Source: an uncultured Verrucomicrobiae bacterium (GTDB lineage: Bacteria; Verrucomicrobiota; Verrucomicrobiia; Limisphaerales; AAA164-E04). Taken from it: 64,000 bases of DNA. The notes under the pieces are model-generated. The model ran no database searches. It was not told the DNA's origin and worked only from the letters and a program-made list of their open reading frames with translations. The translations under genes were made by a program, and so were the position numbers. The stretch is taken from positions 1-64,000 of the forward strand of contig CALSPN010000021.1 in NCBI GenBank assembly GCA_943788245.1, read 5' to 3'. Shown here piece by piece: positions 48,440 through 63,185 of the stretch; positions within the stretch are counted from its first letter, which is position 1; every line of letters begins with the position of its first letter.

Positions 48440-49907
48440 CTACTCATACTTGTATTTGACCACCCAGGGATCACCACTTGCTTCCTGAAACGCCCTGAGC
48501 CGATCCTGCAGATTTATCAAGGTGCGTTCAAATTCAGGGTTAGATGCCAGATTCTCTATTTCAGCAGGATCTGCTTCCATATTGTAAAGCTCATGGCGCG
48601 GTCTTTGTATGTAGTCGCCGATGCGGCGTTTCCCATAGAGACCATCCATGCCGTCTTTGACCGCCGCCTGCCAGGTCGGAGCTTCATATAGATCTGATGC
48701 AAAAGGGTAGGGGAGTTGATGTGCCAGATTGAGGGTGTATTTGAATTGTCTGGTTCGGATCACACGCATGGGATAATACATGGTGATTTCATGGAAAGTG
48801 TGAGAGGCAAAAACATAATCCCATTCCAGTGCTTTTTCCTTTTCGAGTATGGACAAAAAGGACCGGCCATGAAAGGCATACGGAGCCCTCTCACCGCGAC
48901 TGTTGTTATGCTCAAGTCTGGAAAGGTCTATTCCGGCAAAGTCCAACAAGGTTGGAGTCAAGTCAGTCCATGAGACCATGGCATCCGTGGCGATACCCCT
49001 TTTGGATTGATCTGGACTGCGGACAATCAAGGGCAGGCGCATGCCAGGTTCATAGAGCGTCGTCTTGGCACCGGGAAATGCAATGCCGTTGTCTGACAGG
49101 TAAAGTATCAGGGTGTTTTCATATTGATCGGCTTCTTTCAAGATCTGTACTAGCCTGCCAAGCCCCTGATCTATTCTTGACACACTCTGGTAATATTGCG
49201 CCAGTTCCGCACGGCATTCCGGTGAATCCGGAAGGTAGTCCGGGACGAGCACTTCTTGCGGATCGTAAATAAGCTCTTTAACTCCCTCATAAGTCTGATT
49301 GTTCCCAAAACGATTGGGTTTGTAGGGGAGCTCATTGGCATACCCGCCACCTCTGTGGGGATCTGAAGTACAGAAATACAGAAAAAATGGTCTGCTTTTG
49401 TCTTTGTTGATGAAGGGTTGGCATTTCTCCGCCATACTTACCGGATTCCTTGAACCACCTTGATTGCCGGTAAGGTGTTGGTCGAACGGATAGATTTCTT
49501 CCGGTGCCACGTGGTACTTCCCGATGCGGGCTGTTCGATATCCCGCTTTGGATAGCCAGGTTGGCAGACTGACAACGGAATCTTTGGTGTGGAATCGATG
49601 GTAGCTGTGTTGATGCCCGTATTGACCATTCGCATGATTATGCAATCCAGTGAGGATTACGGAGCGACTGGCCGCTGCAGCTTGCTGTCGTGCAAAATGC
49701 ATAATCAAATCGGGTGCCATCCTTTGCCAACGCATCAAGATGTGGTGTTTGAATGGCGGCGTTCCCGTAGCATCCCGCATCCCTTGCCTTGGTCATCCAC
49801 TACAAACATGACAATGTTGCGCGCGAGTTTGACATCTTCCTGAGCACTCAGGGAAAGCGCCAGCAAGAACAACAGAAGACAAGCGTTTTTTTAATTGTTG
49901 ATTTCAT
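48440..49907 (-). CDS. Exported sulfatase, formylglycine type (frame-disrupted N-terminus)
   Basis: The 446-codon ORF covers most of the enzyme: YRTARIGKYHVAPEEIYPFD, PFFLYFCTSDPHRGGG, NTLILYLSDNGIAFPGAKTTLYEPG and MVSWTDLTPTLLDFAGIDL. The first 230 nt need three corrections. From ATG 49907 the intended protein reads a signal (ACLLLFLLALSLSAQED), IVMFVVDDQGKDAGCYGN and AFCTTASCSASRSVILTG, so the Cys of C-S-A-S-R is the formylglycine precursor. The errors are a missing A in the A-tract near 49880, an extra G near 49765 and an extra G near 49670. It is a periplasmic enzyme desulfating polysaccharides or similar substrates, like the sulfatase at 29929. Confidence 0.85.
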
Positions 49908-50232
49908 GAGATTAAAGAGACTGGGTGATTTGTTTCAGATTTTTAACAGAAGCCTATTAGTGAAGGGGAGGTTTTCGTTGCTGCCTTCGCTTGGTCATGA
50001 TTTTTGAGCAGCTTTTCATTATCTTGATCTGTATGGTTAACGCGCCGAGAAATTGTGCTGCAGCACTGAAGTTTAAGTCCTTAAATGTTAGCTTCTGCGG
50101 TGTGACCCACAAGGGTTTTTTAGTCCATATACGAGCAGGGTATGTTTCCATTCCTGTAACTGACTGATTCAGCTTTGACGGAATTGTATGACCATTACAA
50201 ACTTTCAATAAAGCCCATTGCGATCGAATATC
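49908..50232. other. Intergenic region, no recognised gene
   Basis: About 325 nt between the sulfatase start and the citrate synthase remnant. ORF 49957-50259 (minus) has no family likeness and overlaps the remnant. The region presumably holds divergent promoters. Confidence 0.4.
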
Positions 50233-50465: not shown

Positions 50466-50862
50466 TCCTGACCCTGGGAGTCAGGTGTCTGAATATCTCG
50501 TCCCGTTGCCTGGAGAATGCTTTCTTTGAATGCTTCGGGGCTCACGTCTTTGGGAATTGCTTTGCATGTTTTTTTCGAATCCAGGGAAATTCCACAAATT
50601 AGGGAAGTCTCGGCACTGTTGGGGTTTGACAGACTGGATGCTGCATTTGTCATCCTCCAAAAAAATGCATGAACCGTTGGATTGATCCTGAAGAGCTAAC
50701 CCCTTTCGGGACTGGTTCAACCTTGTGAATTGCTGAATAAATGTATTTTCATCCTGTTCAAGAAATGCAGCGATGCGGGTTGATTTCATCCTCCGAAAGC
50801 TTGACCTGGCCCGGCCAGCGGCAACAGGCAGTGCAGCGTTGACATTCAAAAAAAATGGGCAT
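50462..50862 (-). CDS. YkgJ family CxxCxxCC cluster protein (frame-disrupted)
   Basis: From ATG 50862 the corrected frame begins MPIFFECQRCTACCRWPGQVKLSEDEI, a YkgJ/UPF0153 cysteine cluster that binds zinc or iron-sulfur. It continues with RIAAFLEQDENTFIQQFTRL, CIFLEDDKCSIQSVKPQQCRDFPNLWNFPGFE and, after the second break, KTCKAIPKDVSPEAFKESILQ. Two extra bases explain the splits: a C in CCC near 50780 and an A in A7 near 50575. ORFs 50481-50867 and 50462-50653 are its pieces. The stop overlaps that of the convergent citrate synthase remnant by two bases. Function of the family is not established. Confidence 0.78.
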
Positions 50863-50890
50863 TTCAAGATTTGGTCAAATCCGTTGCTCC

Positions 50891-51921
50891 CTAATCCAAA
50901 CTTATCTCAATGTTTGCTTCCCTCTTCAGCTTGTGGAGGTATTCAGGTAAAAGTTTCTCAACATTTTCAGCTTCCAATTGCAACTTGATACGCTCGGAAA
51001 CTTCAGGGAAAGGCTGGTATTCCTTGGGAAACTTTTTCATCAACTTGACAACATGGTAGCCAGTTCCGGTCTTGATCACAGTAGACACCTGTCCCTCTTG
51101 GAGAGCGAACACGGCTTCCTCCAACGTTGGGTTATTACTTCCTTTTGCTATGGTAACCTGTCCCTGATTTGCTTTCGTTACGGCATCTTCAGAATAAGTT
51201 TCTACCAGTTTGATGAAATCTTCCCCAGAGCTTGCTTTTTTTTGGGCTTCTTTTGCCCCTGGTCAGTCGCTTTGTTTTCTCGGTTGAGGATAGCGGTTCT
51301 CCTGTCCAATTTGCTTCTCGCCGGAATGTAAAATATTTCGAAGTTCGGCACGCTCGGGGAATGGCAAACACCTCCTTGTTGACGTCGTAAAATGCACGCG
51401 CTTTTTCGCTGGTCACGATGAAGTTGGCTTTTAAATCAGCATCGATAACCTCTTTGACGATGGCTTGTTCAGTGACTTGGTCCTTGAAATATTCCAAGTC
51501 CATTCCTGTTGAGAGCAGCTGTCTCTCGAATGTCTCCCTCGAAGGGGTGTTGCTGTATCAAATCTTCAAGGAAAGATTTTGCATTCAATTTGCCTCTCCT
51601 TTTTTGCTCCTGGGTTGCCTTGTTCAAGAGGATTTTCGTCGTAATTAACTTATCCAGTATCTGGGCTTCAACTTCATCGTTCAGGTGAGGTGGTATGGGG
51701 TTTCCCTGTGAGACTCGGTTCGCTTTCGTTGTGATGATCGCCTTGTCGAGTTCAGAGCGATTGATTTCCAGATCCTTGCCGGTGGCGACGATGTCATTAC
51801 TGAAAAGATCTGAAAGATTATTGGTTTTGAGCGCGCTTGATTGAGCCTCAAGAGGCTGGTAGCCGTTTAACAGAGTTGAAATCAGGCAATAAAACAATAG
51901 ATTGGATGCCTTCAGCTTCAT
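50891..51921 (-). CDS. SurA-like periplasmic chaperone/peptidyl-prolyl isomerase (frame-disrupted)
   Basis: ORF 51469-51921 begins with a signal peptide (ASNLLFYCLISTLLNGYQPLEA) and a SurA-N-like helical segment (LNDEVEAQILDKLITTKILL). ORF 51189-51503 continues (MDLEYFKDQVTEQAIVKEV). The end, ORF 50891-51124, has the parvulin core EAVFALQEGQVSTVIKTGTGYHVVKLMKK. Between them other frames supply ARVPNFEIFYIPARSKLDRRT and IKLVETYSEDAVTKANQGQ. An extra C in CCCC near 51543 is one of at least three errors. The enzyme would assist outer-membrane protein folding. Its ATG overlaps the serA stop (ATGA), so the two are translationally coupled. Confidence 0.8.
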
Positions 51922-53519
51922 GAGAGTTTTATAATGCGAATACTGCTGATATCCTCATCCCTTTGAATTTCATCCAGTATGGTGTTTTCCGGGATGCTGT
52001 CCAAGTTCAGGACTGTCAATGCGTGGCCACCTTCGCGGTCTCGGTGCAAGCTCATGTTGGCAATGTTGATTTGGTGTTTTGCCAGAATACCCCCCAAGTG
52101 GCCGACAATACCGGGACGGTCCCTGTTGGTAATCAGACAAAGCACCCCCTTTGGGTCGATTTCAACAGGTTGACTATCCAGGCGAACGATACGTGGTTTC
52201 ATTTGAGCGCCAAAGAAAGTTCCGCCGGCAGATGATTTTTCTTCGCCTTTAAATGCAGCGACGTGAAGCCACTCGTTAAAATCGGTTTCCTCATTGGATT
52301 TGACCAGTTCAACAACGATACCCAGCGATTTTGCCATGGCTTTGGCATTGATTTGATTGACGTCCGCTCCACCTGCACTGGCCAGAAAACCGGTCAGGAT
52401 AAATCGCGCAATCGGATCACTTGGCATTTCCGTGGCTTTACCTCCGAAGGTAATGACCAGTCGATCGTTTTGTTGAGGAGCCAATTGTGAAACAAGCCGG
52501 CCAAGTTTTTGTCCCAAAGTTAAGTATGGTTTGACCTTGGCATAAGTCTTTGCATCCAGGCTGGGCATATTCACGGCATTCTGGATGGCTCCTGTCAAAA
52601 GATAGGAACTAATGGATTCACCGATTTCAATGCCAACGTTTTGTTGAGCCTCCTGCGTGCTTGCTCCCAGGTGAGGTGTCGTAATGATTTCAGGTATTTC
52701 CCTGAATGGGTGGTTCGCGTCCAGGGGTTCCTTGCTGTAAACATCGATCGCGGCCCCCGCAATGATACCGGATTTAACTGCCTCAACCAGGTCCTCCTCC
52801 TGCACAATGCCGCCGCGTGCACAATTGAGAATACGCATCCCTTTTTTCATTTTTGCGAAGGCATCTTCATTGATCATGCCACGAGTCTCATCCGTCATTG
52901 GCATGTGGACAGTGATGAAATCGGCCTTTGCATAAATCGCGTCTAAGGTGGCAATTTCGACTTGAATGGCTTTCGCTCTGGAAGGGGAAAGGTATGGGTC
53001 AAAAGCAAGCACGTGCATCCCAAATGCCTGAGCTCGCTTTGCGACCTCAGTGCCAATTCGACCCAGTCCAAGAATGGCCAGTGTCTTGTTGTAAAGTTCG
53101 GTGCCGGAAAAGGCTTTACGGTTCCATTCCTTGTTGGACATGGACATGTGAGCCTGAGGTATCTTTCTTGCCAGGGCCATCAACATGGCAAAGGTCAGTT
53201 CGGCGGTTGAGATCGTATTACCGCCAGGCGTGTTCATTACGACAATGCCGCGTTGAGTCGCAGACTCAACATCTACATTATCGACTCCAACACCCGCGCG
53301 TCCAACTACTTTCAGGCAAGGCGAATGCTCGATGACCTTGGCCGTAATTTTGGTCTCTGATCGAACCACGTAGGCGCTGACATCACCCGCCATTGAAATG
53401 AGCTCGTCCTCACTGGGCCGTTTTTCGAGGACAACGACCTCGAGTTCAGATTGCTTTTGGAAATATTCGATTCCCTTTGCTGAGATTGGATCGCAGATCA
53501 ATACTTTCATCTTTTTCAA
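51918..53519 (-). CDS. serA: D-3-phosphoglycerate dehydrogenase
   Basis: SerA starts serine synthesis by oxidising 3-phosphoglycerate with NAD. The 533-residue long form shows VVGRAGVGVDNVDVESATQRGI, the NAD motif TLAILGLGRIGTEVAKRA near residues 147-164, the catalytic region LNCARGGIVQEEDLVEAV, and the His of TTPHLGASTQEAQ. An ASB domain at about 320-450 and a C-terminal ACT domain (CLITNRDRPGIVGHLGGILAKHQINIANMSLHRDREGG) complete it, suggesting serine feedback control. The frame is intact. ATG 53510 (MKVLICD) is an alternative start. The overlap with surA is 4 nt. Confidence 0.95.
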   Translation of the reverse strand: MKKMKVLICDPISAKGIEYFQKQSELEVVVLEKRPSEDELISMAGDVSAYVVRSETKITAKVIEHSPCLKVVGRAGVGVDNVDVESATQRGIVVMNTPGGNTISTAELTFAMLMALARKIPQAHMSMSNKEWNRKAFSGTELYNKTLAILGLGRIGTEVAKRAQAFGMHVLAFDPYLSPSRAKAIQVEIATLDAIYAKADFITVHMPMTDETRGMINEDAFAKMKKGMRILNCARGGIVQEEDLVEAVKSGIIAGAAIDVYSKEPLDANHPFREIPEIITTPHLGASTQEAQQNVGIEIGESISSYLLTGAIQNAVNMPSLDAKTYAKVKPYLTLGQKLGRLVSQLAPQQNDRLVITFGGKATEMPSDPIARFILTGFLASAGGADVNQINAKAMAKSLGIVVELVKSNEETDFNEWLHVAAFKGEEKSSAGGTFFGAQMKPRIVRLDSQPVEIDPKGVLCLITNRDRPGIVGHLGGILAKHQINIANMSLHRDREGGHALTVLNLDSIPENTILDEIQRDEDISSIRIIKLS

Positions 53520-53798: not shown

Positions 53799-55031
53799 AT
53801 GAATCGTACTAACCTGGATGCCCAATCGAGTACGCCTCCTGCTCCCGAGGTCATTGAGGCAATGCGACCTTACTTATCAGGAAATTTCGCTGCTGCAGCA
53901 TCCGCTCATTATTCTGGTAAACAAGTCCGCAAAGCGATTGAAAGAGCTAGAGAGCAGATCGCCGCTGCCATCAGTGCCTCTGATGTGGAGGAAATTATCC
54001 TTACAGGGTCTGGGACTGAGGCCAATAATCTTGCAATCAAGGGTATCCTTGCCGCTCGAAAACCATTTGGTAATCATGTCATAAGCACCCCTTTAGACCA
54101 TCCTTCTGTCTGGTTTTCTATTCAGTCGATGATTTCACAAGGCTTTGAGCATGGAGTTTGGGAAGTGGACGGAGTGGGGCGCCTGCCAGGTATTGAATCT
54201 CTTGGAGAAAAACTTCGACAGGATACAATCCTGGCTTCAGTGCCAGTTTCAACCCCAGAATTAGGAATCGTTCAACCGATTCATCCAATCTCTGAATGGT
54301 TAGAAAGAGAGGGCATTGCGCTGATGCTGGACGCCACTACTGCTGGCGGTTGGACACCTTTGGATGTCGCCACGTTGAAACCTTCGCTCATGAGCCTTTC
54401 GCCTCATCGATTTCATGGTCCTAAAGGAGTTGGTGTTCTCTACAAACGGCGAGGTGTTAGCCTTGTGCCATTGATACATGGTGGTAACCAAGAATTCGGT
54501 TTGCGCGCTGGAACTGAAAATGTAGCTAGTATTGTGGGCGCGGGGAAGGCATTTGAGCTGATGTCGGGAATCCTTGATGAACGCATTGAAAACGCATGCA
54601 AGCTGCAAACTTTTCTGCTCAGGGAGATTAAAACGAAAATTCCATCCACGGGTATCATTGGGCCTGCGCCAGGAAAGGATCGCTTGAGCAATCAACTCAA
54701 CATCGTCTTTGAGGGTGTCGAAGGCGAAGCACTCATGCTGATGACCAATGTCAGGGGGCTTGATTGCCACACTGGAATCTCATGTGTGAATCGTCACATG
54801 GAGAGTAATCGAATACCCGAAGCTACGGGATTGCCTGATGACTTGTTTCGAAGCAGTCTTCTGCTGTCATGGCATGAGGAACATACCATGGCAGACCTGC
54901 GTGGGGCGGTTGAGATCATCGCAGCGTGCGTTGGTAAGTTGCGTGAAATGTCCCCTGTATGGAACAATCTACAGCGTGGTCGCATGCCTTCGCGCTTGAG
55001 CTTGCTGCCAGAAACCGTGAAGTCTTCTTAG
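53799..55031 (+). CDS. NifS/IscS-fold class V aminotransferase-like protein lacking PLP lysine
   Basis: The 410-residue protein aligns along the whole cysteine desulfurase family: ILTGSGTEANNLAIKG, STPLDHPSVWF (the conserved His), MLDATTAGGWTPLDV (the conserved Asp), SPHRFHGPKGVGVLYKRRG and GGNQEFGLRAGTENVA. The residue that should be the Schiff-base lysine in S-x-H-K-x-x-G-P-K-G is arginine 204 (CGA). The usual V-N-N-E-x-G reads V-S-T-P-E-L-G, and the D-x-x-Q glutamine is also changed. A cysteine is present near the catalytic loop (TGISCVN, C329). It may be a pseudoenzyme or a non-PLP derivative. No iscU or sufE gene is adjacent. Confidence 0.75.
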   Translation: MNRTNLDAQSSTPPAPEVIEAMRPYLSGNFAAAASAHYSGKQVRKAIERAREQIAAAISASDVEEIILTGSGTEANNLAIKGILAARKPFGNHVISTPLDHPSVWFSIQSMISQGFEHGVWEVDGVGRLPGIESLGEKLRQDTILASVPVSTPELGIVQPIHPISEWLEREGIALMLDATTAGGWTPLDVATLKPSLMSLSPHRFHGPKGVGVLYKRRGVSLVPLIHGGNQEFGLRAGTENVASIVGAGKAFELMSGILDERIENACKLQTFLLREIKTKIPSTGIIGPAPGKDRLSNQLNIVFEGVEGEALMLMTNVRGLDCHTGISCVNRHMESNRIPEATGLPDDLFRSSLLLSWHEEHTMADLRGAVEIIAACVGKLREMSPVWNNLQRGRMPSRLSLLPETVKSS

Positions 55032-60366: not shown

Positions 60367-61684
<1,318 letters not shown>

Positions 61685-61738
61685 TTTGTTCCTAGCCCTG
61701 TTGCCCATCTTTTTCAGTTTCACTCACACAATTTCATC

Positions 61739-63185
61739 ATGACAATCATGCAAGTTAGTGGGGAATGTTTTCCCTATTCGAAAACGGGAGGACTTGCCGA
61801 CATGGTGGGTGCACTTTCAAAAGCCCTGGCAGTGGAGAGGAACTCAGGTTCAGGTCGTGACGCCGTTGTACCGCGGCATAGCCAGGAAATTCAAGGAAAT
61901 CCAGCCTATGGATTGGGCTCTTGACCTGGAAATGGGGACAAGGTGGTTTCCGGCAAATTATATACATTAAATCCGCAACCAAATCTCACCATTTACTTTA
62001 TCGAACAACCCGATTACTTCGATCGTCCGGGGATTTATGGTGAAAAGAGTGAGGATTATGAAGATAATTCAGAGCGTTTTCTGTTTTTTTCCAAAGCTGC
62101 AACCAACCTTGCACGTTACCTGACTGATGCACCCGATATCGTCCACGCTCATGACTGGCAGGCAGGAATGGTCCCAGCGATGATTCAACATCAGCATATG
62201 CGTGGAGGCTGGTATCCAGCCCCAACAACATGCTTTACTATTCATAATTTGGCTTATCAGGGGAATTTCCCCTCAGATTCATTCAGTTATACCAATCTTC
62301 CCAGCGATTATTTTGGGCCTCATGGAGTGGAGTTTTACAAACAAGTGAGCTTCCTCAAGTCAGGTTTGATTTTTGCAGATCAATTGACAACGGTCAGCCC
62401 AAAATATGCGAAGGAAATATTAACAGAAGAATTTGCCTGTGGCATGGGAGGCGTACTCAATGCTCGTGCAGAGAGTCTTTGCGGTATATTAAATGGAGTG
62501 GACTACGAGGATTGGAACACCCTTCAGAATCCGAATCTGGATGCTACTTACACGGTGGGTAAAATGGACGGAAAAGCGCTGCAAAAGAAAAAATCTGCAG
62601 ACCATGTTGGGGCTTCCCTGTGAACCGAACGTACCCTTGCTGGGATTGGTGGGGCGATTGGTTGATCAAAAAGGGATGGACCTTCTCTTGCCAGCGCTTC
62701 ATGCAACATTGGATCGCCGTTTCCAATTCGTGCTGCTCGGAAGTGGAATGCCATTTTATCAGGAAGGGTTCAAACGGCTTGCAAGGGACTATCCTGATCA
62801 GGTGGCAGTGACTATTGGATATGATAATTCTCTGGCTCACAAAATAGAGGCCGCCTCCGATTTCTTTGTGATGCCTTCCAAATTCGAGCCTTGTGGATTA
62901 AACCAACTCTACAGCTTGAAATATGGAAGTGTCCCCATTGTTCGAGCTGTTGGTGGCTTGGATGATTCGATTATCGGATTGAGCGAATCCGCTAATGTCG
63001 CAACAGGGATCAAATTCAATGATTATGCAGTCACTGCCTTGGAAGCTGCTCTCAACGAAGCTTTTGATCTTTTTGAGGATCAGGAAAGTTACAAAAAAAT
63101 CCGCAAGAATGGCATGCTCAAGGACTTCTCATGGGAACGTACTTCTCTTGAATACCTGGATCTCTACGACAGCTTGTTACAGTAG
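61739..63185 (+). CDS. glgA: Glycogen synthase (frame-disrupted)
   Basis: GlgA extends alpha-1,4-glucan using ADP-glucose. The N-terminus MTIMQVSGECFPYSKTGGLADMVG holds the K-T-G-G-L sugar-nucleotide loop. ORF 61943-62623 gives IVHAHDWQAGMVPAMI, TCFTIHNLAYQGNFP and LTTVSPKYAKEILTEEF. ORF 62493-63185 gives GLVGRLVDQKGMDLLLPAL, DFFVMPSKFEPCGLNQLYSLKYGSVPIVRAVGGLDDSI, the acceptor E-x-x-G motif. Frame changes occur near 61850, 61920 and 62600, and sequence between the second and third pieces appears to be missing around 62560-62620 (the GT5 middle is short), so a small deletion is also possible. The gene follows serS by 54 nt. Confidence 0.85.

Follow-up and report, generated by a model that had tools for sequence, protein, structure and literature searches.

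The window, by which the whole 64,000 nt stretch analyzed here is meant, contains on its forward strand a gene whose product has the fold of the cysteine desulfurases IscS and NifS, with an arginine in place of the lysine that holds pyridoxal phosphate (PLP). This gene is divergent from serA, and the same head-to-head order is found at three other loci (L111, L112 and L128), being retained across two genera. The features referred to in this work are given below; residue numbers are those of the window protein, and residue counts refer to a comparison of 52 lysine-less and 66 canonical sequences (118 in total).

51918-53519, minus strand: serA (D-3-phosphoglycerate dehydrogenase), divergent neighbour, assigned by Pfam and given as context only.
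53799-55031, plus strand: IscS/NifS-fold protein of 410 aa, lysine-less ("H-R family"); intact ORF, Aminotran_5 and NifS models, AlphaFold2 model and PDB matches.
54249-54266, plus strand: loop STPELG, residues 151-156, at the position of ANNEIG in canonical IscS (alignment).
54339-54341, plus strand: T181, at the position of IscS Gln183 (Q in 66/66 canonical and 0/52 lysine-less sequences).
54408-54410, plus strand: codon CGA within SPHRFHGPKG, encoding R204 where IscS has the PLP lysine K206 (alignment; identical codon in the sibling).
54783-54785, plus strand: C329, the loop cysteine, invariant in 118/118 sequences (Cys328 of IscS, Cys321 of Archaeoglobus fulgidus IscS).
54861-54863, plus strand: L355, at the position of IscS Arg356, which binds the substrate carboxylate (R in 66/66 canonical and 1/52 lysine-less sequences).

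The protein was assigned by fold and by sequence to the IscS/NifS type I cysteine desulfurases (aminotransferase class-V), profile searches giving 161.8 bits against Aminotran_5 and 304 bits against the NifS model TIGR03402, the latter score lying under the equivalog cut-off of 530.75. Its AlphaFold2 model (pLDDT 90) matched NFS1, IscS and A. fulgidus IscS in the PDB. With canonical IscS, NifS and NFS1 it shares the fold, D178, H101, H203, the loop cysteine and a C-terminal LRxMSPxW tail, whereas the catalytic lysine, glutamine and arginine are gone and the NNExG loop is altered. A sequence-only reading of this DNA had described the SPHRFHGPKG motif with R204 encoded by CGA, a changed V-N-N-E-x-G loop and glutamine, and the retention of an aspartate, a histidine and a cysteine near position 329, all of which was borne out by the intact ORF and the alignment. 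That reading had also argued against a single base error, and sequencing error or strain variation at R204 is indeed ruled out, since the sibling orthologue from the same genus (L002, 94% identical) has CGA at the same site and H-R is common to the family.

Compared with the sibling genome (L111), the window has numerous insertions of one base elsewhere (at 49672-50192, 50575-51543, 56758 and 60453-61834), which disrupt several genes, among them serS, one of SurA type and one resembling an esterase. SufB on contig C51 is likewise split, and all of this has the appearance of indel errors from assembly or sequencing. None of the one-base insertions of the assembly relative to the sibling is located within 53799-55031. 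An in-frame TGA pair in another NifS-like gene of this genome was discarded as a candidate feature: the ORF there ends normally, and the alignment had presumably overrun the gene. The H-R gene is also not a SufS, as the suf operon on contig C51, which further encodes a NifU_N protein, has its own SufS with H-K, while the H-R gene is on contig C21.

In IscS, the lysine forms the internal aldimine, the glutamine contacts PLP and the arginine binds the substrate carboxylate. None of these three residues is found in the window protein (R204, T181 and L355, the last being a catalytic loss that the sequence-only reading did not mention), and the loop cysteine that carries the persulfide is present as C329. 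All three residues are kept in each of the 66 canonical homologues, and 49 of the 52 lysine-less proteins have none of them, the exceptions being two with the lysine alone and one with the arginine alone. No new conserved lysine that could substitute for the lost one was found in the H-R family alignment; K209 (of GPKG) was considered and ruled out, being present in canonical enzymes too and missing from several "orphans" (members whose IscU partner is lacking). Members linked to IscU retain T73, H101, D178, H203, T239 and most phosphate-binding residues in the alignment, so that PLP may still be bound non-covalently and a PLP function is possible in these members. The PLP-pocket residues decay in the orphans, and C329 persists in every one of them. 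The most divergent orphans are L026 (genome G007) and L183 (G005); L026 also has alanine in place of the PLP-stacking histidine H101 and no GTE motif, the loop cysteine being retained.

A search of 58 relatives recovered an orthologue group with identities of 36-94%, nearly all of its members having H-R; among 40 aligned family members, the lysine site is occupied by arginine in 38 and by lysine in two. A phylum-wide sample included just two genomes from the window's order; in a separate sample of 196 genomes from that order, a DNA pattern for PHRFxGPxG matched in 66. Outside the order, the pattern gave three matches in the phylum-wide sample, of which one (L176 in G379) is a confirmed family member and two (in G215 and G273) yielded no corresponding protein. 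Named records with the H-R motif are Verrucomicrobia, one of them a Limisphaerales bacterium. The H-R family is monophyletic with a support of 100/100 when the trees are computed from alignments stripped of the trait columns, and this support is unchanged whether the column of position 355 is in or out. On the sequences compared, H-R is a trait of one protein family, common to many families of the order, and not an accident. The sequence-only reading had proposed a search for H-R among Verrucomicrobiota orthologues, with H-K in close orthologues as the sign of an error or a strain variant; that objection fails because H-R recurs in orthologues from many of the order's families, and the two family members in which H-K is back (L009 in G021 and L013 in G022) are nevertheless without the glutamine and the substrate-binding arginine.

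A "true IscU" was defined as a protein scoring above 144 bits against NifU_N. By this measure true IscU is present in 11 of the 58 relatives and adjoins the H-R family gene in 10 of these 11; in G030 it lies on the same contig as the H-R gene, 68 kb off. The SufB/SufD core is absent from ten IscU-bearing genomes, in each of which IscU still has its three cysteines and its LPPVK motif, and from G019 (57% complete); it is present in the remaining 47 genomes, among which only G029 has a true IscU. G029 is unique among the 58 in having SUF together with an IscU beside the family gene (L141), and Cys37 of that IscU is lost (AAAFGDVM). An out-of-sample set of 42 further genomes, chosen with the H-R motif as the sole selection criterion, has IscU in 18 of 20 SUF-minus genomes versus 1 of 22 SUF-plus genomes (Fisher p = 1e-8, a value which overstates the evidence because close relatives are not independent), located at most about 2 kb from the H-R motif in 18 of 19 cases. 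In this set, G561 alone combines SUF with an IscU of full score next to the H-R gene. With both sets pooled, iscU is located beside the iscS-like gene in 28 of the 30 genomes with true IscU. Among relatives and H-R-bearing genomes, SUF and true IscU are therefore near mutually exclusive.

HscB, searched with the HscB_C profile, is absent in 57 of the 58 relatives. A Mrp/ApbC-type Fe-S carrier adjoins the H-R gene in several loci, where neighbouring genes were called from named homologues only, because calling the longest ORFs had produced antisense artefacts where loci are GC-rich. A canonical IscS with lysine, glutamine and arginine, unlinked to the H-R gene, was confirmed in four SUF-minus genomes (G015, G021, G041 and G050). 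In many members of the order, IscU and the H-R gene are part of the only cluster-building system found.

Lysine-less IscS genes beside IscU are also found outside this family, with N-Q in Dehalococcoidia, H-Q in Nitrospirae, and D-L, D-Q and N-D, the last in a Methanophagales archaeon; the hosts of these groups also include Geothermincola and a Bacillota MAG. The loci concerned are L040, L048, L050, L053 and L063 (N-Q), L084, L086, L092 and L108 (H-Q), L064 (D-L), L041 (D-Q) and L078 (N-D). The glutamine and the arginine are lost in all of these proteins. The H-R family and the bacterial lysine-less groups share one side of a branch (100/98, in a tree built without the trait columns), and an AU p of 0.30 was obtained for the placement of the archaeal N-D sequence, which may lie within this assemblage or outside it; the lysine losses, the archaeal one included, may accordingly have one origin or more than one.

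The nearest studied protein is the archaeal IscS of A. fulgidus (PDB 4EB5, 4EB7 and 4HVK, with 4R5F being its D199K mutant), which reportedly has no desulfurase activity and contributes one of its cysteines as a ligand of the IscU-bound cluster (PMC7585200), Cys321 being that ligand in an inactive (IscS-IscU)2 complex (PMC9769115). The window protein resembles it in the joint loss of PLP lysine, glutamine and substrate arginine with retention of the loop cysteine, in its modelled structure (TM-scores of 0.86-0.87 when normalized to query length and 0.94-0.95 when normalized to target length), and in being encoded with IscU in the IscU-bearing relatives. It differs in having arginine rather than aspartate at the lysine site, and in that no true IscU turned up in the window genome. 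Judged by its sequence and genetic context, the window protein would work like A. fulgidus IscS. A second comparison is the minimal ISC system (MIS, MisS-MisU), to which the IscU-bearing relatives correspond in having an IscS-like protein and IscU, without HscB. The cysteine desulfurase of MIS is described as active (PMC12192291, PMC11559095), whereas the H-R family is without the desulfurase residues, and the window genome does not match the MIS pair because the IscU half was not found there.

The sequence-only reading had left open a pseudoenzyme scaffold or a differently used fold. The pseudoenzyme is favoured, because lysine, glutamine and arginine are lost jointly, the loop cysteine is kept and IscU adjoins the gene in relatives. 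We consider it probable that the window protein belongs to the IscS branch but is dead as a desulfurase, and that it derives from a lysine-less IscS that serves as the cysteine-bearing partner of the IscU scaffold in a minimal, MIS-like ISC system. In the IscU-bearing relatives, an H-R dimer would dock IscU, and the invariant loop cysteine (C329 here) would serve the forming cluster, either as a ligand or by relaying persulfide. Any binding of PLP would be non-covalent. Sulfur would come from elsewhere, either as sulfide, a route with a precedent in IscS-deficient E. coli (PMC13015791), or from a separate lysine-containing desulfurase acting in trans. We infer the inactivity as a desulfurase, the role of the cysteine and the source of sulfur for the H-R family as a whole. 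A wider proposition, for and against which we see the balance as even, is that a sizeable part of the order builds its Fe-S clusters on IscU with a desulfurase-dead IscS and neither SUF nor HscB, and belongs in this respect to an older lysine-less IscS-IscU clade of bacteria (Dehalococcoidia, Nitrospirae and others), the sulfur being sulfide or the product of a trans desulfurase.

In IscS dimers the other subunit provides one PLP-phosphate contact. The occurrence of canonical IscS, unlinked, in some of the same genomes, and the conservation in IscU-linked members of the threonine that makes this cross-subunit contact, could be read as signs of a heterodimer, in which the H-R protein would pair with the canonical lysine-containing IscS, regulating it or placing it on IscU, and the complex would be active. 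We hold this to be improbable, as the H-R gene was never seen linked to a canonical iscS and as the IscS of A. fulgidus forms an inactive homodimeric (IscS-IscU)2 complex (PMC9769115). Somewhat less probable still is a PLP enzyme that catalyzes another reaction, with Arg204 or another residue replacing the lysine and the loss of glutamine and arginine reflecting a different substrate. The largely kept PLP pocket of IscU-linked members and the conservation of R204 itself would fit such an enzyme. However, glutamine, leucine or aspartate at the lysine site of the other groups accompanies the same losses of glutamine and arginine, a pattern more in keeping with loss than with a single new chemistry, and the decay of the pocket in orphans around a constant C329, with no new conserved lysine, also speaks against it.

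The window protein is best described as an orphan whose partner is lacking, because its genome has SUF and no true IscU was found in it (79% complete), the NifU_N protein of the suf operon being the only one present; this NifU_N-type scaffold is possibly its present partner. The distance from the family base averages 1.30 for orphans versus 0.62 for IscU-linked members (p = 0.0003), and is 1.80 for the window protein. With dN/dS relative to the sibling at 0.15, well below 1 though above the values of serA (0.06) and trmL (0.09), the H-R gene in the window genome is under purifying selection. That the gene is a functionless leftover of an ISC system replaced by SUF, as the presence of SUF, the apparent lack of IscU, the long orphan branches and the IscU without Cys37 in G029, which has both systems, might be taken to indicate, is as unlikely as another reaction, given the intact ORF, this dN/dS, the invariance of Cys329 in all orphans and the conservation of the serA neighbourhood in two genera. 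The preferred account for this member is that of a fast-evolving, retained orphan, its present role being uncertain and the weakest part of that account.

In the open-access papers found, lysine-less IscS is described from archaea only (A. fulgidus and IscS1 of Methanosarcina), although an earlier report of a bacterial family is possible. The bacterial family described here shares this triple loss at the active site, is linked to IscU and hardly ever occurs with both IscU and SUF in one genome. Annotation of such genes by homology as "cysteine desulfurase" would mislead models of sulfur metabolism, and a role of IscS besides sulfur supply becomes directly testable in bacteria.
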